Shown: in pieces, positions 2,333 through 17,342 of the stretch
Layout of the letters: every line of letters starts with the position of its first letter
How positions within the stretch are numbered: the stretch's first letter is position 1
DNA from: Ferruginibacter sp.
GTDB taxonomy: Bacteria; Bacteroidota; Bacteroidia; Chitinophagales; Chitinophagaceae
NCBI GenBank assembly: GCA_025350645.1
Contig: JANXXM010000109.1
Location: forward strand, 1 to 33,666
DNA length: 33,666 bases
Direction: 5' to 3'
Notes under the pieces: model-generated
Databases searched by the model: none
What the model saw: the letters and a program-made list of their open reading frames with translations, nothing else
What the model was told of the DNA's origin: nothing
Made by a program: the position numbers and the translations under genes

Positions 2333-4309
2333 TTAATTTAATTGAATTTCTGTCTGATAATTGGCAAATGTTTCCACAATATTTTCTTTCATAGCTTCAG
2401 CAAAATACATATCAATTACCCCCTTATTTTTTGCTTCAATTTTACCTCTGTAAACACAATCAAATTTTTCTTTTACCAATTCATAGGTAGTTCCACTAAT
2501 ATTTACTCTGCCCACCTCTCCGCTGCTTTCCATTCGGGAGGCAGTGTTTACCGTATCTCCCCAAATATCATAAGCAAATTTTTTAATACCTACAATACCC
2601 GCCACCACCGGGCCTGAGTGAATGCCAAGGCGCAGTTCGAAATAAGGCAGTCCATTTTGTATTCTTTGCTGCTTGTTCATTTCAATAAATTGTACCATCT
2701 CCAATCCTGCGCTCACTACATCAAAAGGGTGTGTGTTGTTGCACACAGGTAAGCCGCCTGCACACATGTATGAATCGCCAATGGTCTTTATTTTTTCTAT
2801 TCCATACCTTTCCACAATTCTATCAAATTCGCTATAGCAATAATTTATTTCTGCCACCAGTTCCTCTGGTGTAAGTATTTCACTTGCTTGTGTAAAATTT
2901 TTAAAATCTGTAAACAATACACTTACTAAATCTAATCGTTTTGTTTTTGCAGTGCCAGTGGCTTTTAATTCTTCGGCAGTTTCGGCAGGTAAAATATTGA
3001 GTAATAACTTATCGCTTCTTTTCTTCTCATTACCAATTTTATTTCTTTGTTTAAAAAATACGGATGCAAATAGCAGCACAGTTAAAAACCCTCCAATAAA
3101 ACCGTACTTTACCATTTTCTGTCTTTGTATTTCTCTTCGTTGTATTTCTTTGTTCTTGTTTAATAAACTAATTTCTCCTTCTTTTTTTTCCAGGTCAAAA
3201 CCAAATTGCAATGTTCCAAGTTTCTTATCTGTATTGATGTTGTAAATAGTATCTTTTATGGTAAGGAGCAAGTTTTGGTATTTAAATGCATTGGTATAAT
3301 CTGCTTGTTGAGCATACGATTCTGATAAACCCTGGTATGCATCTTTCATTTCCACATTAGCATTTAGCGGCATGGAAACTTCTATAGATTGCTGAAAAGT
3401 TTTAATAGCGGAGGCTACATCCCCACTTGCCTTATAAGCTTGCGCCAGCGCAACGAGGGATTGTGTTTGGTCTAGTTTTGTATCTAGCTTCTTAGCAATA
3501 TTATAAGCCTCAGTATGTATTTGTATTGCCTTTTCAAAATTTTTTTGCCTTGTAAAAACCCTGCCAATATAATTCAATGTATATGGCAAATCTTCAGTGC
3601 CCTTGTATGCTTTTTCGGATTGGCGCAGGTACTCCAGTGCTTTTTTATCGTCTCCCATTTTAAAATACAATTCACCAAGATTAACAGCAGATGTGCCTAT
3701 TGAATAATCATCTTTTATGGCAAGACTGAGTTGAAAGGAACGAAGAAAATAATCTAGTGCTTTTTGATAAGTGACAGGTTTATTCAAATATACCGCTCCA
3801 ATATTGGTGAGTGAGGTTAGTATTCGTAAAGTATCATTTAGTGCTTCAGACATTTTTAAGGATTGCAAATGCAACTCCAAAGATTTTGCATCATCCCCTT
3901 GGTTAAAGTAAACTGCCCCCTGGTTACTAAGCATATTGGCAACGCCTTTTTTATCATTCAATAATTTATACACTTCTATTGCCTGATGCCAGTTTAAAAT
4001 AGCTTCTTTATATTTTCCTCCTAAGTAATAACCCTTACCTATATTTTTATAAGCAAGTGCTAAGCCTGGTTTGTAATTGATGCGTTCTGCCAACGATTTT
4101 GCGGTGTTAGCAATAACAATAGAAGTATCGGGATTGGAATTAAAAAAAGATTTACTCAATACATTTAATACATCTACTCTTGCGCTATCTGTAACACTCG
4201 TTAATAATATTTTTTTTAGACTATCTGCTTCATTGGCAAAAACTTTCGTTTGAAAGCAACTAAAAAAAATGATGCTCATTAAAATAATTCGTAGATTTTT
4301 TTTTGTCAT
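2333..4309 (-). CDS. TPR-repeat class III adenylate cyclase, membrane-anchored
   Basis: The 658-residue protein has an N-terminal signal sequence (about residues 1-26), about 340 residues of tetratricopeptide repeats expected outside the cytoplasmic membrane, one membrane helix (about 399-418), a short coiled-coil linker, and a class III nucleotidyl cyclase domain (about 435-640). Both metal-binding Asp residues are visible, D468 in LFTDFKNFT and D512 in KTIGDSYM. The adenine-selecting pair K508 and D581 (in DIWGDTVN) and the transition-state residues N588 and R592 are also present, so it should make cAMP rather than cGMP. TPR input from the periplasm could control the cyclase. No cyclic-nucleotide-binding partner is encoded nearby. 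It appears to be transcribed alone. Confidence 0.9.
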   Translation of the reverse strand: MTKKNLRIILMSIIFFSCFQTKVFANEADSLKKILLTSVTDSARVDVLNVLSKSFFNSNPDTSIVIANTAKSLAERINYKPGLALAYKNIGKGYYLGGKYKEAILNWHQAIEVYKLLNDKKGVANMLSNQGAVYFNQGDDAKSLELHLQSLKMSEALNDTLRILTSLTNIGAVYLNKPVTYQKALDYFLRSFQLSLAIKDDYSIGTSAVNLGELYFKMGDDKKALEYLRQSEKAYKGTEDLPYTLNYIGRVFTRQKNFEKAIQIHTEAYNIAKKLDTKLDQTQSLVALAQAYKASGDVASAIKTFQQSIEVSMPLNANVEMKDAYQGLSESYAQQADYTNAFKYQNLLLTIKDTIYNINTDKKLGTLQFGFDLEKKEGEISLLNKNKEIQRREIQRQKMVKYGFIGGFLTVLLFASVFFKQRNKIGNEKKRSDKLLLNILPAETAEELKATGTAKTKRLDLVSVLFTDFKNFTQASEILTPEELVAEINYCYSEFDRIVERYGIEKIKTIGDSYMCAGGLPVCNNTHPFDVVSAGLEMVQFIEMNKQQRIQNGLPYFELRLGIHSGPVVAGIVGIKKFAYDIWGDTVNTASRMESSGEVGRVNISGTTYELVKEKFDCVYRGKIEAKNKGVIDMYFAEAMKENIVETFANYQTEIQLN

Positions 4310-4361
4310 TATTTTAATTATTTTAAATTTTATAGTGTGCCATGTTTCAAATTATTACAGA

Positions 4362-4478: not shown

Positions 4479-7400
4479 CTACAGCTTTACCAGTTTAATA
4501 ACTTTCCTTTGATCACCCTGTATTACTTCTACCCAATAAATACCACTCATCCATGAGTCTGTATTTATTTTTATTTTATTATTTGCCACAGTTTTTTGCA
4601 GGTACATTAATTTACCACTTGTATTTATAACCCTCATTTGTACTGGCGTAAAGTTGTCTTTTGCTTTTGTAGAAATATCGAAAAAATGCACAAAAGGATT
4701 TGGAGTAATGAGCACATCAAAAACTGGTATGTCCAGTGCTTTATAAACAGGTTTATCTTGTATTGCAGCAAATTCTTCCGGTGGAATATTATTCCCTGGA
4801 TTAGCTTTAAGTCCGCTTGCATTTACCCTTAAACAGAAGGCATCCATTTTTACATAATCGCAGGTAACAAAACTTTGTACCCTTGCTTTTGTAGCCCCCG
4901 CAGGTGCCGTAGCAGTGATGCTGTAAAAAGCCAATTGGCCAAAATTTGCATCTACGTTTTGATTAACTGCTACATCGGTTTGACTTAATACTGTACCAGC
5001 AGCATTGCGGAATATTAAACTCAGTTTAGGGTTGCAAGCCAGGCCAGGTGTATGGGTTCCAGCAAAGCCACTAAGGGTTAGCGTAGTACCAGCAGTTATT
5101 GTTACATCCTGGTAAACGGTAGAATTTTTGTTAAAAGAATTATTAAAACCATTCTTAGTTCCACATGCTACATAACCAGTACCAGATGATACGGTACCCC
5201 CAATTGCACTCCAGCCGGTAGTTCCATTTTCAAAACTTCCATTGGTTAATAAATTGCCAGAAGTATTTATACAATTACAATCAGGTAACAATCCAAAATC
5301 ATAGGAATTATTGGTATTATTATTGGCATCGGGCTCGTTTCCTATAGATAGTGTAATGGCCAGTCCTCTTATTTCATTCCCCACTTGCACGGATCCGTTA
5401 TCATCATTGTTTATATTATTATCTGGGTCAGCAGCATTTATATTGCTACTTACATAACCATTAGGAATAATGGCACCTACAATATAATTTCCTGGAGCAA
5501 GGCCGGCAAAAGAATAATATCCACTGGCATCTGTTATGGTAGTTGCTATTGCCGAACCATCTGCCACATTATTATTGTCATTATCCTTATACAGCTTCAT
5601 GGTAATATTCCTCATGCCATTTTCACTACTGCTGTTTATTCCGTTATTATCTGCATCGTACCATACTCTATTGCCCAATACCAATATTGATGGAACAAAT
5701 CCTGCATCAATATTATTATTTGTTTGATTTGAAGCTAACACAATCCCTGTTGCTACTCCGTTTAAAGGGTCACTATCTTTTGTAACATCAGTACCTATTT
5801 TACCGGGTGATGCGCTAAACCCCGCAGGTGTTGTAAAGGAAACACCGTAAGTTCCCTGCATCAAATTATTGAAGCTGTATGCTCCATTGCTATTGGTTGT
5901 TGTAGTTGTCAAAATTGTTCCTGCACTATTTAATAAACTAACCGTTACTCCTGCAATACCTGGTTCATTTATATTTTGAATACCGTTTCCATTATTATCT
6001 CTAAAAACAAAATCGCCAATGGATGAACAATTTGGTGGAGATATAATAACACTCGTAATAAGAGAAATACAACCTGTGGTATTTTTTGCAGTGAGGTTAT
6101 AAGTTCCTGCCGCAACTCCTGTAAACACTCCTGTTGTATTAGTGTAGGTACTTCCGTTTATACTAAATGTTAATCCTGTTTTTGCTGAAGTAACCGTTAT
6201 TGTTCCTGTAGCTAAGGTGCAGGTAGGTTGCGTAACAGAAGCAGTTGGCGAAGCAGGTAAAACACCTGGTGTAGCTATTACAGTTGCCACTGCACTTGTG
6301 CAACCATTAACCGTTTTTGTAAGTGTATAATTACCGGCAGTACTTACCGTAATAGAAGCAGTAGTTGCACCAGTACTCCACAATAAAGCACCTGTAGCTG
6401 TTGTGGAAAGTATAGAGCTTCCACAATTATTTCCTATCGTTAAAATTGGTGCAGATAATAATGCTGGCACAGTTAATATTCCATTTTTATAAACAGGAAT
6501 ATAATTTGGTACAGCACCTTGTTGTAACAATGCAGAAGGAAAAATTTTATAAGTACCGGGGCTAAGATTGCCAGTGCCTGCGTTTACATTTGTATTCGTA
6601 AGCACTGTGTATACAGGGCCTGTAGCCACTACATTGCTATCTGCATCTTCGTATTGATACATTGCTTTAGTACTTTTATAAATAGGTTGTTCTCCATTAC
6701 AGCCTGCAATGGTATCTTTTGCTTTTACAATTAAAGTATCAGGTATAATGGTAAGATTACCCAAACCATAATTAATATCAAAGTTTTCAGACATCAAAAC
6801 ACCTGGGCCAATTAACCAGTTGCCAACAGTAATTCCTGATATCATATTCATCGATTCAAAGCCTAATAAAGAATCACTATTTAATCCATATACATCCAAA
6901 GAATCTACAATGAGCAATACGTCATCGTTTGTTTCATCATTAAAGCTATTGCTGTTTACAGCAGCTTTTCCGTTTACAGCTTGTTTACCATTTACCATTT
7001 GTTTTCCGTTTACAGCGGCTTTACCATTTACCATTTGCTTTCCATTTACTGCAGCCTTACCGTTTACAGCCTGTTTACCATTTACGGCTTGTTTGCCATT
7101 GTATATAATTGCATTTGCAGAATCGACCTGGTAATCAAAAACCGACTCTGGTGCTACAGGAATATAATACGTAGAATCGTATTTAATAATTCCGTTTACT
7201 GCTTGTTTACCATTTACTGCCTGCTTACCATTTACTGCAGCTTTCCCGCTTGTCATAAAACTCATGTTAAGAAAATCGCTTGCAGTTAGTGTTAAACCAT
7301 TCACTGCCTGCTTCCCGTTAATTAATATCATTGAATTTGACATAGGAGATTTATGTACAAAAACCAATGAATCTAAAAAAGCTGATTGCTCCAACGGATC

Positions 7401-10400
7401 TATCAAGGAAGCATTGTATGCATAATTAAATTTTAATTGTTTTCCTTTTATGGCTCTACCATACGCTACCGTAGTATCTTTTGGTGTAATGGTAAGCGGC
7501 ATCCTGTTTATGGTTAGCAACCCATCTACGAAATTGTAATTATACAATGCGGATAATGTAACAGATGCAGGCAAGGAAAGATTGGTAACAGAGGAAGATG
7601 CTCGCCTGTAATACAAACCAATATTGCTTTGGTTATTTGCTGAAGATGTAAATATCACATCTGTTAAACCGAGGTCTGTAATTGTTATTCCTGTTGAATC
7701 TAACGGTATATTATTAATTTTTACTGCAAAGGAATAGGCAGGTATTTTTTCACCAAATTTTTTCGTTGCACTATTCACTGTTACGGTTACATTGGCTGGC
7801 ATTGTTCCAAAAAAGTACAACGAATCGCTTTTACCACCATCTAAATTATTGGTAGTAATACCGGGATTATAAATTACCAAAGGTGGGTTACCCATAAAAG
7901 CAGGAATACTTGCGGTAAGCTGTTTTCCATTATTTGTAACCAATGTTGGTATTGTATCGTAGCGGAAAATTACTTTTGCATTATTGCTAAAATATTCTCC
8001 TTTCATTACAACAGTAACGGGGTTTACACCGGGTGTGTATGCAGAATCTTGCAGGCGCATAGTATCTACTAATGGAAAAGGAGTTGAGAAGGTTTTTAAT
8101 GCGGCATCTGCTTGTATAAAACCATAACCACTATTTACATCATAGCCTGGCGTGTCCATATCAATGGCACTTGTTTGCAAAATTGTTTTCATTTGAGCCC
8201 CTGTAAAAGATACTCCATTAAAATATTTTTTCTTGGCTTCCATAAGCAAAGCGGCTACAGCAGCCGCATGTGGTGCAGCAGCAGATGTACCAAAGAAATT
8301 AGGGAAAGGATCACTATCAATATTTACTCCACCAAAATTTACAGTAGTGTTTACGCCGTTTGGTGCGGTAATATCTGGCTTAAATCTATTATTACCATTT
8401 ATTAATGTACCACCTCTTGAGGAGAATGATGCTATTGTTGGCACATTGCCATACTCAGGTGTATTGCTGTACAATACCGCCCCTACTGTGATTGCGCCTG
8501 CTGCATTGGCTTGTCCAAGTACAGTGCCCGTACCTTGTGTGTTGCTGGTAATAGTACCTTCACCTCTATAAATTACATATTTAAAACGTACGTTTCTGTT
8601 GCCACCTTTTCTGGTAACAATAATTTTTGCATCTACATCTGCAAGTACAACAAATGGACATACTTCGAACGGATCGCCATTTAAATTATTTCTGTTAAAA
8701 CCAAATTTTCTACCACCGAATTTATCTACTAAATAAATATCTAAATCATCCAGCGCACCTAAGGCGTCTTTATCAGAATAAAATTTATCATCCCATTGCA
8801 ATGTGATGGTATAAGTGCCTTTTGTAAGCGAAATATTTTGATAAACATTACCCCCACCAAAATCATGTGCCATGCCTACATAGCCTGCGGGTGCTGTAAT
8901 AGGAGCAAATACTCCTTCATAAGATTTTGTACCAAAGTTACCCGCAGAGGTAAAATAACTTACCCCACTTGCTGTAACATTATCTACTGCTTTTGCAATA
9001 ACACCATCAGCAAAAAATGGTTCTGTTATGTAAGTGATATCATCTACAATTACATTACAACCACTGTCTCTTAATGCTTTTATACCTTCTGCAAAATCAT
9101 CAGCACTTTTAAAACCACTCCTAAAATACAATGCAGCATCCGGCGCTACATCATGCACAATTTGCAGCATGGCACGCCCTTCATCTGTTGCTTTACCATA
9201 AGGATATTCTTCTACATTTTTTACGGGTATAGTATGTACAGGATTTCCTGTACCTGGTAAATCTCCATTAATAACATCTAACTGTGCAGGGTTACCAAAC
9301 TTGGTATTATAGCTATCGCTCATTACACCAATTTTAATTCCACTACCAGATATTTTCCAGGCTTCTTTTGCTCTGTCGCTTCGCATTGCTTTATCGCCCT
9401 GCGTAGTTGTAAGCCCAGTAAATGCCGAAGTAATTGGCGTAAAATAAGGACGTACATATCTTATAAATTGTGGCAATGAATTTAGCAATGGTAAATTTGC
9501 AATAGGAAAAAAACCAGTAATGATAAGTGAAGAATTTCCATTATCTACAAAACTATTCATGCCATACGCAGGTGTTTGTAATAAAGTTTTTAAAGCCTGA
9601 TAATTTAAAGAAGTTGCAATTACTTCTATCAACACTTCGTTGCTGGAATCTCTGATAAGAAAAATATTATTAGTAGCAGTTGTATCTACCAGCGAATTAG
9701 GAAAATTAAATAACTGCGTAAGTTCAGCACCAATAAGGCTTGCAGTAGTATCGTTGGTTGGTGGTGCATAATATGGAATGATGCAGTTAGTACGAATAAC
9801 TCTTAATGTAGCAGAAGCAGTGCAACCATTAGCATCTGTAACGGTATAATTGTATATACCTGCTGCAAGGTTTGTTGTTGGGCTTCCGCCATAAGTATAA
9901 GGAGTTGTACCACCTGTAGCAATCAATGTAACGTTGCCAGTTAATTGTCCGCTTTCTGTACAAACAATTAATGTATCAGCTGCAGATGTGGTAAGTGTTA
10001 CATTACAACAAATGGTGCCTGTAACTACGCCACCTGGTGCTACCCAGTTAGATGTTGGGCCGGCTAATGCAAAATTATTCAGTGTACCATTGTTATTATT
10101 TCCACTTGCATCTACCAAATTAGTAACTCCTGAATTACTAGCAGAAGCTATTCCCTGGTTAAAATGATAAGCAGCCAACAAGCCTGATTGCGCTTGTATT
10201 TCACAATTTCTATTTGCCAATATTTGTGCAGCTGTACGCACCGTATTCCATACCCTTACTTCATCAATGTTACCATCAAATTCATCGCCACTATATGCAT
10301 TTGTACCAATACGAGTAATGGCGCCGTTGCCAATAAAAGTTGATGGAATAATAGCCTGCCCTATTAAAATACCATCTCTATAAATCTTTCTTTCTTTCGT

Positions 10401-12707
10401 TACATTATCAAAAGTACATGCCCAATGATGCCAAATTAAATCAGTTGTAATAGGAATTTCGAAGTCGTTAGGGCCACCCCAAAAATTAAAAATAAATTTA
10501 TTTGTATTTGAAAAACCGATGTGTAAGAGTTGATTATTACTTCCCGAAGAACCCTGCGAAAAAGCTACATCATAAGTGTTTGTAGTGTTTCGTTTAAGCC
10601 ACATTTCTACCGAGAAAGATTTATTGGTTACATCAACACCTGGGTTAGCAATATTTACATTGTCATTGCCACCATCAAAACTTAAAGCTGCAGCAGGTGC
10701 ATTTAATGGGCAGGTTAAACTATAAGTAGCAGTAACATCTTTAGCAGCACTCCAGTTGGTATTCATGTAAGCTACATTGTCAACTTTTATACAAGTTAAT
10801 GCTGGATTATTGGTGGCTACAAAAGTGCTGAGGTTAGTATTGTTTCCATTTTGCATGTTCAAACTCGTCAAAGCATTGTCAGCGCAATACAAAGAGGTAA
10901 GTAAACCATTTGCACTTACATCTAAAGTGGTAATATTATTGTTGTAACAGAAAAGGGTTGTCAAGTTTGGATAACCGGATACGTTTAATGAGGTTAAATT
11001 ATTTTGCTGACACTGCAAACCCGTAAGTGTATTTGTAACAGGAAGATTTAATGCTGTTAATTGGTTATTGGCACAACTTAAGGTGATTAAATTTGTATAA
11101 GGCGTAAGATTTAAAGTACCCGTTAAAGCATTTGAAAATACTAAAATTGTATTGAGTGTTGCGTTACCTGTTAGCGTTAAATTACTAATGTTATTAAGGC
11201 CGCAATTCAAGGATTGTAAAGCAACATTTGTACTAAGATTTAAGGTTGTCAAACTATTATTACCGCAACTTAAATTTTGTAAATTAATATTTGCCGAAAC
11301 ATTAAGCGCTGTTAAATTATTACTACTACAATCTAAAACCGTAAGTAAAGGAAACGCTTCAATACCTGTTAAACTGGTAATGCCTAATCCATTAACAGTA
11401 ATAGCTCCATTATATGCTGCAGCTTCTGTACATTGTATTTCTCCATCTGCATTTGTATTAATAGAAGTATTGGCTAGCAAAGCAGCTTTAAAAATAGGGT
11501 CAGGTATATTTACAGTACATGTTAATTCGCCTACCTCAAAATCGCCGAGGGTATTAAAGCCATTAGCCGTAATACTGGTTGCTGTTTGGCCGCTTACAGA
11601 AGGATACGTCCATGTGGGAGATATAAACTTTCCTACTTTAAATAACGTAGGGCTTGCTGCAGGGTCAGCATCAGCAGTTACCCAACTAAAATTTGCTGAT
11701 GCGTTGGTAAACGTTAAGCCGTTATTACTTAAACTCCAATATCGATTTACCGTTTTGCTTGCTATAAAGTTTGAAGATGATAAATTTGGATGATCGCTGC
11801 TTGTTGTATTAATATTTACACCACCTGTACCCGAAGAGCCCTGCAAAGTAAGAGTAACTGGTTTGTAGCCGCCTGCATCACCTATGCGATATAATTTTGT
11901 TGAAGTACCTGCCCCATAATTTAATTGCAGATTACCATCTACAAACCATTCTGTAGCGGAGTTATTTTGAGTAGATGCGGTAGTAGCAAGTATAAGATTA
12001 CCGGTAGATATTACATTTCCAAAATTGAAATTTAAAAGGTCAGTTATAGTTTGGTTACCCGATATTATACAACCGTTATTATTAGAGGTGATTAGTGTAC
12101 GTATTACACCTGTACCCGATATAGTTGTTGTAGTTACATCGGGCCTTGGGTTTAATTCTGTATTAATAGTACCATTGTTAATTAAGGTTAAGCCTCTGTA
12201 TTGCAAATTAGATGTTGGCCCTTCAATTAAAGCACCTGCATTTACCGTAAGTAAACAATTATTGCCCCAGGCAGATGCAGCAAAGCCATTTAAAGTTAAA
12301 TCTGCACCTGCACCATTATTGATGGTTAAAGTAATACCGCCTGTAATTGGAGCTATTTGTCCACCTGTTTCTACCACTGTTTGGTCTATTGTAACATCTG
12401 CTGTAATACGCACGCTTGTTGGGCTTCGTACAGTAATAACGCCATCATTAAAATCGGGCGATACCGTGGCAGGCACCCAACTTACTCCATCAAATTTTTC
12501 CCAGGTAACAGGGTTGTTCCATGCCACAAAAGTGGCTGTAATTATACTTCTATAATCTCCCGCTGTTTGTGCCTTAGCATTTTGAGAATTTAAACATAAT
12601 ATACTTATAAAAAGCACAAAAGCTACTTGTGCAATTTTCTTTTTAAAAGCTAATAATAAAAGAGACAGTTTTTTTGAAATGAAGTTGGTTACAGTAAAAT
12701 GATACAT
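4479..12707 (-). CDS. Giant multidomain T9SS-exported protein with subtilase-like domain
   Basis: The 2742-residue protein begins with a long signal peptide (cleavage near residue 47, after KAQ) and ends in a type IX secretion C-terminal domain (about 2666-2742, ITPNPF then a SGIYWVEV-type strand). So it should cross the outer membrane and be surface-attached or released. In between I see: beta-rich N-terminal region; Bacteroidota-type leucine-rich repeats (about 440-616); LamG-like domain (about 672-860); SprB/Ig-like segment (about 920-966); subtilase-like domain (about 1120-1540) with D1131, E1176, N1257 and S1475; MBG-like regions (about 1636-1756 and 1980-2083) flanking GKQAVN-type repeats; further Ig/SprB-like sequence; two SdrD/Cna-B-like domains (about 2228-2476); and a beta-sandwich carbohydrate-binding-like region (about 2481-2630). 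Glu stands in the catalytic His position, so protease activity is not certain. An adhesin or processing role is possible. Confidence 0.85.
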   Translation of the reverse strand: MYHFTVTNFISKKLSLLLLAFKKKIAQVAFVLFISILCLNSQNAKAQTAGDYRSIITATFVAWNNPVTWEKFDGVSWVPATVSPDFNDGVITVRSPTSVRITADVTIDQTVVETGGQIAPITGGITLTINNGAGADLTLNGFAASAWGNNCLLTVNAGALIEGPTSNLQYRGLTLINNGTINTELNPRPDVTTTTISGTGVIRTLITSNNNGCIISGNQTITDLLNFNFGNVISTGNLILATTASTQNNSATEWFVDGNLQLNYGAGTSTKLYRIGDAGGYKPVTLTLQGSSGTGGVNINTTSSDHPNLSSSNFIASKTVNRYWSLSNNGLTFTNASANFSWVTADADPAASPTLFKVGKFISPTWTYPSVSGQTATSITANGFNTLGDFEVGELTCTVNIPDPIFKAALLANTSINTNADGEIQCTEAAAYNGAITVNGLGITSLTGIEAFPLLTVLDCSSNNLTALNVSANINLQNLSCGNNSLTTLNLSTNVALQSLNCGLNNISNLTLTGNATLNTILVFSNALTGTLNLTPYTNLITLSCANNQLTALNLPVTNTLTGLQCQQNNLTSLNVSGYPNLTTLFCYNNNITTLDVSANGLLTSLYCADNALTSLNMQNGNNTNLSTFVATNNPALTCIKVDNVAYMNTNWSAAKDVTATYSLTCPLNAPAAALSFDGGNDNVNIANPGVDVTNKSFSVEMWLKRNTTNTYDVAFSQGSSGSNNQLLHIGFSNTNKFIFNFWGGPNDFEIPITTDLIWHHWACTFDNVTKERKIYRDGILIGQAIIPSTFIGNGAITRIGTNAYSGDEFDGNIDEVRVWNTVRTAAQILANRNCEIQAQSGLLAAYHFNQGIASASNSGVTNLVDASGNNNNGTLNNFALAGPTSNWVAPGGVVTGTICCNVTLTTSAADTLIVCTESGQLTGNVTLIATGGTTPYTYGGSPTTNLAAGIYNYTVTDANGCTASATLRVIRTNCIIPYYAPPTNDTTASLIGAELTQLFNFPNSLVDTTATNNIFLIRDSSNEVLIEVIATSLNYQALKTLLQTPAYGMNSFVDNGNSSLIITGFFPIANLPLLNSLPQFIRYVRPYFTPITSAFTGLTTTQGDKAMRSDRAKEAWKISGSGIKIGVMSDSYNTKFGNPAQLDVINGDLPGTGNPVHTIPVKNVEEYPYGKATDEGRAMLQIVHDVAPDAALYFRSGFKSADDFAEGIKALRDSGCNVIVDDITYITEPFFADGVIAKAVDNVTASGVSYFTSAGNFGTKSYEGVFAPITAPAGYVGMAHDFGGGNVYQNISLTKGTYTITLQWDDKFYSDKDALGALDDLDIYLVDKFGGRKFGFNRNNLNGDPFEVCPFVVLADVDAKIIVTRKGGNRNVRFKYVIYRGEGTITSNTQGTGTVLGQANAAGAITVGAVLYSNTPEYGNVPTIASFSSRGGTLINGNNRFKPDITAPNGVNTTVNFGGVNIDSDPFPNFFGTSAAAPHAAAVAALLMEAKKKYFNGVSFTGAQMKTILQTSAIDMDTPGYDVNSGYGFIQADAALKTFSTPFPLVDTMRLQDSAYTPGVNPVTVVMKGEYFSNNAKVIFRYDTIPTLVTNNGKQLTASIPAFMGNPPLVIYNPGITTNNLDGGKSDSLYFFGTMPANVTVTVNSATKKFGEKIPAYSFAVKINNIPLDSTGITITDLGLTDVIFTSSANNQSNIGLYYRRASSSVTNLSLPASVTLSALYNYNFVDGLLTINRMPLTITPKDTTVAYGRAIKGKQLKFNYAYNASLIDPLEQSAFLDSLVFVHKSPMSNSMILINGKQAVNGLTLTASDFLNMSFMTSGKAAVNGKQAVNGKQAVNGIIKYDSTYYIPVAPESVFDYQVDSANAIIYNGKQAVNGKQAVNGKAAVNGKQMVNGKAAVNGKQMVNGKQAVNGKAAVNSNSFNDETNDDVLLIVDSLDVYGLNSDSLLGFESMNMISGITVGNWLIGPGVLMSENFDINYGLGNLTIIPDTLIVKAKDTIAGCNGEQPIYKSTKAMYQYEDADSNVVATGPVYTVLTNTNVNAGTGNLSPGTYKIFPSALLQQGAVPNYIPVYKNGILTVPALLSAPILTIGNNCGSSILSTTATGALLWSTGATTASITVSTAGNYTLTKTVNGCTSAVATVIATPGVLPASPTASVTQPTCTLATGTITVTSAKTGLTFSINGSTYTNTTGVFTGVAAGTYNLTAKNTTGCISLITSVIISPPNCSSIGDFVFRDNNGNGIQNINEPGIAGVTVSLLNSAGTILTTTTTNSNGAYSFNNLMQGTYGVSFTTPAGFSASPGKIGTDVTKDSDPLNGVATGIVLASNQTNNNIDAGFVPSILVLGNRVWYDADNNGINSSSENGMRNITMKLYKDNDNNNVADGSAIATTITDASGYYSFAGLAPGNYIVGAIIPNGYVSSNINAADPDNNINNDDNGSVQVGNEIRGLAITLSIGNEPDANNNTNNSYDFGLLPDCNCINTSGNLLTNGSFENGTTGWSAIGGTVSSGTGYVACGTKNGFNNSFNKNSTVYQDVTITAGTTLTLSGFAGTHTPGLACNPKLSLIFRNAAGTVLSQTDVAVNQNVDANFGQLAFYSITATAPAGATKARVQSFVTCDYVKMDAFCLRVNASGLKANPGNNIPPEEFAAIQDKPVYKALDIPVFDVLITPNPFVHFFDISTKAKDNFTPVQMRVINTSGKLMYLQKTVANNKIKINTDSWMSGIYWVEVIQGDQRKVIKLVKL
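6954..7097 (-). repeat. Coding 18-bp tandem repeat, eight units (GKQAVN type)
   Basis: Eight consecutive 18-bp units in the giant gene encode hexapeptides GKQAVN, GKAAVN or GKQMVN (residues 1871-1918). Synonymous positions vary between units (for example cca versus ccg for the Gly complement), so these are not freshly copied repeats. The protein pattern is kept while the DNA has drifted, implying selection on the peptide. Confidence 0.9.
7194..7247 (-). repeat. Coding 18-bp tandem repeat, three units
   Basis: Three further units of the same hexapeptide (GKAAVN, GKQAVN, GKQAVN; residues 1821-1838) are separated from the eight-unit block by a 32-residue non-repeat linker. A single related unit (GKQAVN, residues 1798-1803) lies at 7299-7316. 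Confidence 0.85.
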
Positions 12708-13265: not shown

Positions 13266-16200
13266 ATGATGAAGCACTTTGCTACCATTAAAACTTTTGT
13301 ATGCTTTGCAATTATACTTGCATCCATTAATGTACATGCGCAATCTACGCCTGGGTATGAAAGTATTGCTGCTACACAAGGTTTATCGCAGGGTATGGTG
13401 TATGATATTATACAAGATAAAGAAGGCTTTATATGGGTAGGTACAAAAGATGGTCTTAACCGTTATGATGGCTATAATTTTAAAGTATTTACCAACGATC
13501 CTTACAATGCCAAAAGTTTAAGCAGTAATAGTATTAATAAATTGTTTGAAGACAGCAAAGGACGAATATGGGTGGGTACAGAAAACGAGGGCCTCAATAT
13601 TTATGATAAAAAAAGTGGTGATTTTTTTAGAATACTGCATAGTAATGCAAACGAAAACAGTCTTTCTAATAATGTTATAAAATTGATGGAAGAACTGCCG
13701 GATGGCAGGGTGATGGTTGCTACAGATGATGGTAAAATAAACATCATAACACTTGCCATTAATTTTTTAGACAAAAATGTAGCACTAACTATCACTAAAA
13801 CATCTACGCCCAATAATACTAAAGTGTATGGTATGGCAAATGATAAAAATAAAAATACTTGGATTGGAAGTATGGATGGTACTGTGTATAGATACGATGC
13901 TGTGAAAAATAGTTTTATAAAATTAGCCAATGCACAATTACTCAACAATGGTTATTTTACCAATGAGCAAACAGCCTTAATTAATAGTAACCTTTATTTA
14001 TATGATGGAACAGAAGTGACCCCATTATTTGATACAACCAAAATACCCCAAGGCAATATCATTTTTAAACCCAATAGTGCCCTATGGGATAAGCACCATA
14101 GAGAATTGTCTTTTTATGATGTAAGTGCTTGGGGGCCTGATAAAAAAATTAATTGGAATCTTAAACTACCTACAGATAAAAGAATTGTTTACCCTTTTAT
14201 ATTTGACCACTCAGGTATGTTGTGGTGTGGTACTGTTGGGTATGGTTTAAGAAAATATAATGTAGCTAGCGATAAATTTAATGCACAACTTACTGCCTAT
14301 AGCATTTACAGCATAGTGCCCAATACAGATAATGATATTTTTTTGGGAGATGTTGGCTACAGATGGAAAAGGCAACAAAATAAAAATATACAAGAGGAAG
14401 CTTTTGCCAACATACCACAGGTAACACAAATAGATAATTTTATTATTGCAAAAACAGGTGACTACTGGCTTAAAAGCGACAATAAAGGCTACTTTAAATA
14501 TAACCCTGTTACCAATAAATTAACACCTTATCCTTCTATAAATAATTATGAAGGAATGGGCTCCAAACAACCCATTATAGAGGATAGCAAAAACCAAATT
14601 TGGTTTGGTGGTTTGGGAGGTGTTTTTATGCTGTTAAACAGCAGTACCGAAAAAATAGCTACCATAAATATTAATACCAATGCTGCTAAACCTTTATCAG
14701 ATTTTGCAGTATCTACTGCTTTATTTGAGGACAAAAATGGAACGTATTGGATTGGTACTTTAGATGGTTTTGCAAAAGTCAATTTAGCCAATTCAACAAA
14801 TGCTGAAACACAAATAAGATGGTATTACAATAATAGTAATCCTAATTCTCTTAATTACAATCATGTTTCTTGTTTTTTAGATGATCCTTCTAATACCAAT
14901 TATTTATGGATAGGTACCAAAGGTGGAGGATTGAATAGGCTGGAGAAATCTACTGGCAATTTTTTTCACCTAACTGTAAAAGATGGTTTGCCTGATAATG
15001 TGGTGTATGGATTATTGGCTGATGATGCAGGTAACATTTGGGGAAGTACAAACAAAGGTCTTTTTTGTATGAGCGCATCAAATAATAAATGGACTTTTAA
15101 AAATTTTACTAAGGCGGATGGTTTGCAGGATAATGAATTTAACACAAATGCATACACAAAATTGCCCAATGGACATTTGGCTTTTGGTGGCGTAAATGGG
15201 TTAAATATTTTTGACCCAAAAGAAATATTAGCCAAAAATTTTACACCGCAAGTTTTTATTACAAATATTTTAGTAAATAATTTACCTGTACTCCCAAATG
15301 ATAAAACTGGCGTATTAAAAAATACCATTGAGCAAACAGAAAATATTTCTCTTAATTACTTGCAAGATATTCTTACGCTAGAATTTGCAGCATTAGATTT
15401 TACCACTGCTTCGCAAAATAAATACCGTTATAAATTAGAAGGGGCAGATAAAGATTGGATAGAAGCAGGTACAAACAGGAGTGCTACTTATTTGCATTTG
15501 CCTTCAGGGAAATATACTTTTAAAGTGCAAGGCAGCAATAGCAAAGGCGTATGGAGTGAACATATTGCTATATTAAAAATTAATGTATTGCCGCCATGGT
15601 GGCGTACTTGGTGGGCTTACATGTTGTATTTATTTGCACTTGGGTTTGCAGTAAGAGCCTATTTTAAATTTAAAGTAAACAAAGCAAAACTACAAAACCA
15701 ACTAAATTTTGAACAGCAAGAAGCCAAGCGAGTAAAAGAATTGGATGCGGTAAAAACGCAACTATATACAAATATTACACATGAGTTTCGTACACCACTT
15801 ACGGTAATACTTGGTATGGCGCAGCAAGTAAAAGATAAACCTGCAGAGCACTTTGATAATGGTATGAATATGATTATACGCAATGGAGAAAACTTGCTTA
15901 AGCTAGTGAATGAAATGCTCGACTTATCAAAACTGGAAAGCGGAAAAATGGAATTGAATTTAACGCAAGGAGATGTAATACATTTTTTAAGATACATGGT
16001 AGAGTCTTTTCAATCACTAGCAGAAAGCCAAAAAAAGCAGTTTCACTTTTTATCGGAAATAGATAGTTTATATGTAGGATACGATGGAGAAAAGCTACGG
16101 CAAATTGTTACCAATTTATTATCAAACGCATTAAAATTTACACCAGAAAAAGGGAACGTATATATTTCTATTGCTGCCGGTATAAAAGCAGAAAAAACAG

Positions 16201-17342
16201 TTACAACACTTATTATAAAAGTAAAAGATACCGGCATAGGCATACCCGAAAGCCAGTTGGAGCATATATTTGAGCGTTTTTATCAATTAGACAACAGCCA
16301 TACAAGAAAAGCAGAAGGTACAGGTATTGGCCTTGCACTTACCAAAGAACTGGCAAAATTAATGAATGGAGATGTTACCGTAAAAAGCCCGCCAACAGGG
16401 GCAAATAAAGGAACAGAATTTACGGTAACCTTGCAATTGCAAAAAGTAAATACACAAGAAGTAACTGTTGCAAATACTTTTGAGGGAAATGGATTTTCAA
16501 CAAAAATTATTAACAATGCTGACTATATAAATGCAGAAAATAGCGATACTCAAAAACCATTAATCTTATTGGTAGAGGATAATGCAGATGTAGTAGCATA
16601 TACCGCTAGTTGCCTGCCGGATTATAGATTAGCGGTAGGCAAAGACGGAAAAGAAGGATTGGAGATTGCCGCAGAAATCATTCCGGATTTAATTATTACC
16701 GATGTAATGATGCCCTACATAGACGGGTTTGAACTTTGCCGTATGCTGCGTGCAGAGGAACGCACAAGCCATATACCCATTATTATGCTTACGGCAAAGG
16801 CAGATATTAAAAGCAAACTCGAAGGCTTGGAACGTGGTGCAGATGTGTATTTGGAAAAACCATTTCACAAAGATGAATTGCTGCTGCGTATAAAAAAATT
16901 ATTGGAGCTTAGAAAAAAATTGCAACAGTATTATATAAAGTATGCAGGTATTAATGTTGTACCAGTAGTAATAGAAACTAATACTATTTCGGAAATCCCT
17001 TTGTATATTGAACCTGTAGAAAATGAATTTGTAAAAAAAGTAAGAGAAGCTATAGAGACACATATAGAAGATATAAACTTTTCTGTAGAGCAATTGTGCA
17101 AATATATTTTTATGAGCCACTCACAGTTGCATAGAAAACTTGATGCCCTCACTGGTTTCTCACCCAATAAATTTATTAGAATTATCCGTTTAAATAAAGC
17201 AAAAGAATTATTGCAAACTAATGAAAAAAGCATAGCTGCTATTTCGCTGGATTGTGGGTACAACGACCCCGGTTATTTTACAAGAGTTTTTAAGCAGGAG
17301 TTTGGTGTAACGCCTCAGGAGTGGCGGTTGCAGGAAAAATAA
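13266..17342 (+). CDS. Hybrid two-component system sensor/regulator (one-piece HTCS)
   Basis: The 1358-residue protein fuses a whole signalling pathway. It has a signal peptide (1-25, ending VHAQ), a periplasmic two-component-regulator propeller of repeated 'IWVGT..GLN..' blades (about 30-690), a Y_Y_Y domain (about 695-770), and a membrane helix (about 778-803). The cytoplasmic part is a HisKA domain with phospho-acceptor H839 in THEFRTP, a HATPase_c domain (about 940-1060) with DTGIGIP and GTGIGLAL, a receiver with D1146 in ITDVMMP, and an AraC-type HTH (about 1255-1358). In Bacteroidota such proteins sense sugars or other ligands in the periplasm and switch on adjacent operons. No susC/susD-like genes flank it. 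The divergent giant exoprotein gene is the obvious candidate target. Its 3' end is four bases from a convergent gene. Confidence 0.93.
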   Translation: MMKHFATIKTFVCFAIILASINVHAQSTPGYESIAATQGLSQGMVYDIIQDKEGFIWVGTKDGLNRYDGYNFKVFTNDPYNAKSLSSNSINKLFEDSKGRIWVGTENEGLNIYDKKSGDFFRILHSNANENSLSNNVIKLMEELPDGRVMVATDDGKINIITLAINFLDKNVALTITKTSTPNNTKVYGMANDKNKNTWIGSMDGTVYRYDAVKNSFIKLANAQLLNNGYFTNEQTALINSNLYLYDGTEVTPLFDTTKIPQGNIIFKPNSALWDKHHRELSFYDVSAWGPDKKINWNLKLPTDKRIVYPFIFDHSGMLWCGTVGYGLRKYNVASDKFNAQLTAYSIYSIVPNTDNDIFLGDVGYRWKRQQNKNIQEEAFANIPQVTQIDNFIIAKTGDYWLKSDNKGYFKYNPVTNKLTPYPSINNYEGMGSKQPIIEDSKNQIWFGGLGGVFMLLNSSTEKIATININTNAAKPLSDFAVSTALFEDKNGTYWIGTLDGFAKVNLANSTNAETQIRWYYNNSNPNSLNYNHVSCFLDDPSNTNYLWIGTKGGGLNRLEKSTGNFFHLTVKDGLPDNVVYGLLADDAGNIWGSTNKGLFCMSASNNKWTFKNFTKADGLQDNEFNTNAYTKLPNGHLAFGGVNGLNIFDPKEILAKNFTPQVFITNILVNNLPVLPNDKTGVLKNTIEQTENISLNYLQDILTLEFAALDFTTASQNKYRYKLEGADKDWIEAGTNRSATYLHLPSGKYTFKVQGSNSKGVWSEHIAILKINVLPPWWRTWWAYMLYLFALGFAVRAYFKFKVNKAKLQNQLNFEQQEAKRVKELDAVKTQLYTNITHEFRTPLTVILGMAQQVKDKPAEHFDNGMNMIIRNGENLLKLVNEMLDLSKLESGKMELNLTQGDVIHFLRYMVESFQSLAESQKKQFHFLSEIDSLYVGYDGEKLRQIVTNLLSNALKFTPEKGNVYISIAAGIKAEKTVTTLIIKVKDTGIGIPESQLEHIFERFYQLDNSHTRKAEGTGIGLALTKELAKLMNGDVTVKSPPTGANKGTEFTVTLQLQKVNTQEVTVANTFEGNGFSTKIINNADYINAENSDTQKPLILLVEDNADVVAYTASCLPDYRLAVGKDGKEGLEIAAEIIPDLIITDVMMPYIDGFELCRMLRAEERTSHIPIIMLTAKADIKSKLEGLERGADVYLEKPFHKDELLLRIKKLLELRKKLQQYYIKYAGINVVPVVIETNTISEIPLYIEPVENEFVKKVREAIETHIEDINFSVEQLCKYIFMSHSQLHRKLDALTGFSPNKFIRIIRLNKAKELLQTNEKSIAAISLDCGYNDPGYFTRVFKQEFGVTPQEWRLQEK

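Follow-up and report, generated by a model that had tools for sequence, protein, structure and literature searches.

Protein-specific hexapeptide words change in step with the groove of a neighbouring TPR sensor and suggest an unrecognised peptide-and-receptor system in Chitinophagales

Why does a large surface protein of a Ferruginibacter genome repeat one hexapeptide, and why does each of its relatives repeat a hexapeptide of its own? The question is raised by one gene in the window, the whole 33,666-nucleotide stretch of DNA that was analysed. The answer proposed here is that the repeated words are probably ligands, recognised by the TPR domain of a membrane sensor that the neighbouring gene is predicted to encode. 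The gene and its blocks of words are as follows:

4479..12707 (-): array gene, encoding a surface subtilase of 2742 aa
6954..7097 (-): block 3, eight words, exact matches
7194..7247 (-): block 2, three words, exact matches
7299..7316 (-): block 1, one isolated word, LIN[GKQAVN]GLT, exact match

The pattern GK[QA][AM]VN has twelve exact matches in this gene, spanning 6954-7316 (-) in blocks of eight, three and one, just as the sequence-only reading had described; in 2000 shuffles of the protein its mean count is 0.001 and its maximum 1. TRF detects the array in the window DNA at 6955-7100, with periods of 18 and 36 bp and 66-77% matches, and a second stretch at 7195-7238 with 92% matches. The earlier observation that the codons differ while the peptide is kept also holds: all six NGKQAV copies differ as 18-mers, and the identity among their codons, 0.48, is not above the 0.53 expected from the gene's own codon usage. 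The antisense frames open across the array (6820-7134 and 6981-7289, (+)) are an expected by-product of the repeat. A search of the genome itself at E<=1 finds the array in no gene besides 4479-12707 (-). No named domain had been recognised in the pattern, and in Pfam and NCBIfam the window array indeed stays under the cut-off of every model.

The array protein consists, in order, of an N-terminal region, LRR, laminin-G-like, S8, TIG-like, MBG and array-MBG parts, two SdrD_B stretches and a Por tail, where the TIG-like part is assigned from homologues and MBG_2 from a Pfam match. The parts that matter most here are placed as follows:

8121..8624 (-): Peptidase_S8 stretch, residues 1362-1529 (Pfam E 3.4e-17), containing GTSAAAPHAA
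6717..7787 (-): MBG_2 domain and array-bearing MBG-like domain, a conserved unit (alignment A2, 23 sequences; Pfam MBG_2)
4491..4703 (-): Por_Secre_tail, the C-terminal sorting signal of type IX secretion (PF18962, E 4.7e-9)

By profile match, the window protein and its homologues are members of the Peptidase S8 family and predicted proteases. PF00082 matches the window protein and 10/10 homologues scanned, all of which also contain MBG_2 and four of which contain TIG, and an S8-to-MBG profile has matches in 19/19 further upstream stretches. An S8 alignment of 22 sequences shows conservation of 95% or more for the Ser of GTS and the DEGRAM Glu, and of 75% or more for the Asp. This Glu, which lies inside the conserved DEGRAMLQIVHD motif of the array gene, presumably occupies the place of the S8 catalytic His in a sedolisin-like manner. 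The MBG-type surroundings reported earlier are real, if weak in the window, where PF18676 (MBG_2) reaches E 5e-4 and 21.0 bits, below the gathering score of 25; homologues reach 43 bits, and 23/23 members of alignment A2, from which the divergent L043 was left out, match at E<=0.1 (best 8.5e-14). Three of the 23 also match Pam3_gp18 (best 2.6e-5). Homologous array proteins measure 1617-2472 aa in 12 complete frames, with most uncut open frames some 1500-5100 aa long. Upstream of the array gene lies a divergently oriented neighbour, 13266-17342 (+), a hybrid two-component regulator of 1358 aa with Reg_prop, Y_Y_Y, HisKA, HATPase, response regulator and AraC HTH domains.

The array had been called unusual. 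It is not unique, in that it belongs to a conserved MBG_2-type domain of Chitinophagales proteins; its peculiarity is that every protein repeats a word of its own. A protein search of 98 genomes, its own included, gives matches at E<=0.01 in 13 (two loci were set aside, the collagen-like L014 and L013, which was not read in frame). Scanning named genome contigs gives 23 loci, for the most part from MAGs, with titles that name Chitinophagaceae, Chitinophagales or other Bacteroidetes; two named isolates among them, Ilyomonas limi 17mud1-8 and Ginsengibacter hankyongi BR5-29, have related arrays. In profile scans, again with the own genome included, relatives are found in 30/396 genomes of the order, 47/394 of the family and 5/395 of the phylum; none of 41 pattern matches in viral contigs is a relative. 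The 1+3+8 slot layout recurs in the independent assemblies L021, L022 and L024, which, together with the arrays of the two isolates, contradicts the suggestion that the array might be an assembly artefact.

Among 68 proteins there are 50 distinct words, assigned by hand, in phase, from translations, with 8-residue words reduced to their last six residues. They include GKQAVN, ARQAVN, GKRSVN, GRALVN, AKSIIN, TRGLVN and IKSVVN, and further GKQLVS, GKAIVA, AKSLLN, AHAIVN, GIPLVN, GLSLVN, LRGIVS and ARPLVN. In 23 proteins, identity between blocks of one protein is 0.657, against 0.400 (sd 0.017) when blocks are re-dealt, a value as high being reached in 0/5000 trials; the same slot compared across proteins gives 0.453. 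Isolated copies outside the blocks bear the same word. Slots 3f and 3h in one subfamily keep their own sequence instead of the protein's word, L027 and L074 mix words, and 8-residue words occur in several proteins (L061, L062, L072). In L061, L062, L162, L163, L167 and L171 such words (NGVPVAIV, NGQAVTIV, NGTLVQLV and the like) occupy the place of the hexapeptide. Some close relatives have a word in common (four g92 genomes, two g122 and three g43), and different words are found among other g43 members and members of g1 and g36. In the proposed comparison, unit number is 12 in the window, L021 and L022 while the word changes. A slippage-driven hypervariable array was rejected on this ground.

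The regular Lys had been thought to serve in binding, cross-linking or spacing. Only 30/50 distinct words have K or R at position 2 (V, I, L, T, Q, H, G, A or E in the rest), which makes Lys-based cross-linking unlikely, and a role as a binding element fits best. Cross-linking was dropped on this variability despite a match of one of the 23 A2 members to Cementoin, a transglutaminase-binding repeat, at E 5.1e-5, its score against the cut-off not being given.

Within proteins, the codons of like words are identical at 0.488, against 0.385 expected from local usage (4065 codon pairs), and the excess is present in 19/23 proteins. Some DNA copying is thus remembered, yet synonymous sites are near saturation. 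L071 holds 31 GLSLVN copies in 30 distinct 18-mers, with a codon identity of 0.31 against 0.32 expected; L068 has 31 distinct 18-mers for 33 copies and L055 has 14 for 14. Between L068 and L071, which belong to the same genus, 35 aligned word copies (of 47 and 37 in total) agree in 0.99 of residues, by construction, since only matched words were compared; the codon identity of these words is 0.29, and the flanks are 45% identical. A codon-linkage test for DNA copying gives p<=0.05 in 4/45 proteins, in a table that includes a row for L031 where another repeated 6-mer was picked. Codon saturation, taken together with the sharing and switching of words, indicates that words persist beyond the saturation of synonymous sites and nonetheless give way to a wholly different word in other lineages, in some cases under one and the same genus label.

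These data bear on the view that 18-bp units spread neutrally, by slippage or gene conversion, with no specific role. It draws on residual DNA similarity in L042 (0.84), L032 (0.64), L034 (0.63) and L025 (0.62), and on identical 18-mers common to different blocks of L025 and L034. Such spreading is at odds with identical peptides in near-random codons, with the presence of both Ser families (AGY and TCN) within the words of L028, L037 and L038, and with the constant unit number of 12; it also gives no reason for the words to track a TPR groove, as described below. Neutral concerted evolution is already disfavoured and appears very improbable. The ligand reading would account for this odd repeat, in which identical peptides with near-random codons are swapped wholesale between lineages.

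A second view treats the array as structure: identical units would stack in a beta-solenoid, a beta-meander or an adhesive spacer, and the sensor would merely be co-regulated. Type IX-secreted surface proteins are often adhesins, and 333/402 repeat spacings of up to 30 residues equal 6, 8, 12 or 18 (two rows of the spacing table picked other repeats). The six-residue period and aliphatic residues resemble bacterial hexapeptide/YdcK beta-solenoids, and L026 matches the YdcK profile at 2e-9. This match is far under the cut-off, however: the NCBIfam YdcK model matches 2/23 members at E<=0.1, with 36.8 (L026) and 14.3 bits against 350, and the array therefore does not map onto this described repeat family; the Pfam YdcK repeat matches 1/23 members (E 0.038). 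Unlike in such solenoids, hydrophobic positions differ across words, and 8-residue words stand in the same place in L061 and L062. The structure prediction asked for earlier yielded domain models, AlphaFold2 giving a mean pLDDT of 64.5 for A2 and 53.6 for A3 (L026 first), in which the word blocks have low confidence (58-67, 45-46 and, for the eight-copy block, 24-29 in A2; 25-54 in A3). Both runs leave the array unmodelled, with no confident fold, and Foldseek with the first model (A2) returns zero matches at E<=0.001. A left-handed beta-helix is accordingly a weak candidate. A structural array would also not explain the same word in isolated copies away from the blocks, and it would not lead one to expect words that coevolve with a TPR groove encoded by another gene. 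It is considered unlikely.

Beside the array gene, the window contains a second gene of interest:

2333..4309 (-): downstream sensor, 658 aa, with a hydrophobic N-terminus, TPR domain, TM segment and class III adenylate/guanylate cyclase

This protein is a predicted class III nucleotidyl cyclase by profile match (PF00211, 1.3e-53; TPR_12, 6.4e-37), with hydrophobic segments from a hydropathy scan. The sequence-only reading had observed neither that the words are protein-specific nor that a sensor gene is coupled to the array gene. A comparison of neighbouring ORFs gives one recurrent same-strand downstream family, which combines TPR repeats, a TM segment and a class III cyclase or histidine kinase; TPR models match 6/6 sensors scanned. 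The TPR sensor is adjacent in 67/73 evaluable loci, with one ORF between in three (L079, L094, L101). The count comprises 17/19 for the window and L021-L043 (five lacking downstream sequence), 23/25 for L076-L101 (L086 not evaluable, L102 a duplicate) and 27/29 for L144-L174 (L145 a duplicate, L170 not evaluable). The evaluable loci without an adjacent TPR sensor are L039, where SprB repeats come next instead, L042, L095, L100, L156 and L168. L100 (G556) encodes an NGLSVI array protein of another family, next door to a GAF histidine kinase of 419 aa. In L028, L035, L037 and L038 the output half of the sensor is a histidine kinase, in place of the class III cyclase of most others, and the TPR half and gene order are kept despite this. 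Untruncated sensors are 633-755 aa from stop to stop. In a plain hydropathy scan, which predicts topology, a hydrophobic segment begins at residue 392-446 in 36/37 sensors and an N-terminal segment exceeds the threshold in 24/37. The genome itself has one strong member of the sensor family, at 1026 bits, the next best scoring 121 bits. No terminator-like site was found between the array gene and the sensor gene in the window.

Do word and sensor change together? Word and TPR distances correlate at 0.521 in 33 pairs, taken from the first 37 without the truncated sensors L026 and L027 and without L031 and L088, which have no S8. The partial correlation, once S8, TIG+MBG, flank and effector are accounted for, is 0.353, a value reached in 0/2000 permutations; with fewer controls, a preceding analysis (n=35) had given 0.381. 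The remaining partial correlations with the word are 0.044 for S8, -0.041 for TIG+MBG, -0.028 for the MBG flank and -0.018 for the effector half. In 24 of 31 later pairs (those without a full S8 stretch or near-identical being left out) the partial correlation of word and TPR is 0.440 (p 0.0005), S8 shows a weak one of 0.178 (p 0.03), and the effector gives -0.10. The subtilase in cis was rejected as the coevolving partner, the correlation of word and S8 given TPR being -0.002, but 0.178 in the later pairs. Because partial Mantel tests are liberal with related sequences, word evolution was also simulated on S8, combined and TPR trees, and the simulated words reached the observed value in 1, 0 and 1 of 400 runs (mean partial r 0.05-0.07, sd 0.11-0.12). 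The simulations reduce the liberal bias only in part, and their words were slightly under-diverged (mean distance 0.56-0.57 against 0.60).

Such a correlation might arise from shared history without contact, if the array and sensor genes travelled as a pair, by inheritance or by transfer, and had a genealogy unlike that of the subtilase. The genes are adjacent, and TPR and flank distances correlate at 0.71. Yet the MBG flank between array and sensor gene and the effector half carry no signal once TPR is included, and words simulated on the TPR tree itself rarely reach the observed value. Shared history is given a somewhat lower chance than the structural array, and the residue-level pattern also tells against it.

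For this pattern, TPR motifs were numbered from the conserved N-x-G, taken as positions 6 and 8; in Pfam TPR_1, model position 6 falls on residue 210 of the ATG ORF (224 in frame numbering), and residues are numbered along the stop-to-stop frame 2336-4351 of the window sensor. In PMC1261162, TPR positions 2, 5, 9, 12, 13, 33 and 34 form the variable concave ligand-binding face, and the Asn at position 6 contacts the peptide backbone. A column scan of 65 sensors (68 pairs minus L026 and two near-identical sensors) gives a mean partial r of 0.074 for the 24 usable columns at positions 2, 5, 9, 12 and 13 of five motifs, against -0.005 for 333 other columns (p 4.7e-5), a difference reached in 0/400 runs by permutation and by each of two tree simulations. 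Shifting the position set by -3, +4 and +7 gives 0.071, 0.055 and 0.049, and other shifts 0.03 or less; these three shifts share helix face and positions with the original set, so the signal comes mainly from positions 2, 9 and 12. The covariation is thus concentrated on one TPR helix face, and in two codons it is sharpest:

3935..3937 (-): codon of TPR Asn139 (Asn125 of the ATG ORF), motif 2, position 2; covaries with word residue 6
4025..4027 (-): codon of TPR Tyr109, motif 1, position 12; covaries with word residue 5

Word position 6 correlates with TPR139 at r 0.85 (next column 0.22) and word position 5 with TPR109 at r 0.59, and simulated or permuted maxima reach these values in 0 and 0-2 of 400 runs, respectively. 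Word positions 1-4 have no comparably clear TPR partner, their best r of 0.20-0.30 being reached in up to 59/400 null runs. Words with Asn6 are paired with Asn139 in 59/61 cases and words without it in 0/7, where residue 139 is Thr (three LRGIVS), Leu (GKAIVA), Arg (GKQLVS, GRALVS) or Lys (GKAIFS). This rule was noted from three proteins, before G029 (one copy, at the contig start) and other later sensors were examined; three genera in the count were examined after that point. Parsimony gives 3-4 changes of Asn6 and 4-5 of Asn139, so that the loss of Asn6 represents just 3-4 independent events. The sole exceptions among the 68 pairs are L165 and L166, which have irregular AVVILN repeats and Asp139. 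The 8-residue words of L061, L062, L162, L163, L167 and L171 end in Asn in phase, and their paired sensors keep Asn139. Words with Val5 go with Tyr109 in 45/47 cases and words with another residue 5 in 6/21 (Fisher p 1e-6 and 0.003 when split by set, relatedness ignored). T179 was rejected as a second specificity residue when its companion rule failed in held-out pairs.

By computation, then, the two genes are linked, the words are protein-specific, and their coevolution with the TPR groove extends to individual residues. A word that changes in step with the sensor groove suggests an unrecognised peptide-and-receptor system in Chitinophagales. In the proposed system, a type-IX-secreted subtilase would carry many copies of one short linear ligand, which the TPR domain of the next-gene membrane sensor would bind directly, at a putative periplasmic site. 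Multivalent or peptide-induced dimerisation of the sensor may then switch its cytoplasmic cyclase or kinase: either the multi-copy ligand would cluster and dimerise the sensor, or cut peptides would bind singly. Reader and words might meet on the intact protein, for example during export, or through peptides cut by the subtilase. Against binding counts the outer-surface sorting signal of the array protein, whereas the sensor TPR domain is predicted to be periplasmic.

Release as free peptides is plausible. It is in keeping with the presence, within the array protein itself, of a subtilase whose GTS and DEGRAM motifs are conserved, and with the residues flanking word runs, N, S, D or G preceding in 212/227 and G, A, S or T following in 192/227; since many neighbouring residues are word variants, this preference is a mere hint of cutting. 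The weak tracking of the word by the subtilase itself counts against release. Taken further, the system might be a lineage-specific peptide-pheromone system of Bacteroidota, in which a cut-out word is read by the next-door sensor. The surface subtilase would carry about 5-50 copies of its own signal hexapeptide, the word serving as a private code, and after cutting at [NSD]-[GAST] junctions the peptides would re-enter the periplasm, where the TPR-cyclase or TPR-kinase would read them. GKQAVN has a mass of about 620 Da, by arithmetic, near the porin limit. This pheromone version is held tentatively, as somewhat doubtful.

If the ligand reading is true, databases already contain dozens of ligand-receptor pairs of natural specificity, whose ligands can be read off the arrays and whose receptors are given by the adjoining genes; a TPR-peptide recognition code could be learned from them. 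The reading would also assign a ligand to the membrane TPR-cyclases and TPR-kinases of Bacteroidota, and suggest peptide communication or self-monitoring in a phylum for which the searches of open-licence PMC papers showed no described case. That literature, as searched for MBG repeats, repeat evolution, TPR-cyclases and Bacteroidota peptide signalling, yielded no description of such a system, and no ligand for the TPR domain of TPR-class III cyclases.

Its parts have known counterparts. The MBG_2 domain of the YGX type (PF18676) resembles the domain that the array interrupts, but its model, 72 positions long, has no room for the array. Membrane-bound TPR-class III adenylate cyclases likewise combine the TPR and cyclase domains of the present sensor. 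There is also a likeness to the RRNPP(A) systems (Rap-Phr, NprR, PlcR, AimR), in which a TPR receptor is encoded next to a short-peptide gene. These systems are found in Firmicutes and their mobile elements. By PMC11343458 and PMC10075063, they involve extracellular proteolysis, and some Phr propeptides contain repeated pheromones; a conserved Asn in Rap proteins anchors the main chain of the pheromone (PMC11343458). The sensor has TPRs and the genes are adjacent, and covariation at ligand positions points to peptide binding. Their definition in PMC10075063 includes a small propeptide (10-100 aa) and a cytosolic receptor of 250-500 aa. Here, by contrast, the receptor is a membrane sensor of 633-755 aa, by predicted topology, with a cyclase or kinase, the word is carried by a large secreted subtilase (2742 aa in the window), and the host belongs to the Bacteroidota. 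With neither a small propeptide nor a cytosolic receptor of that size, the system is not an RRNPP member; by analogy, its logic is that of the RRNPP systems.
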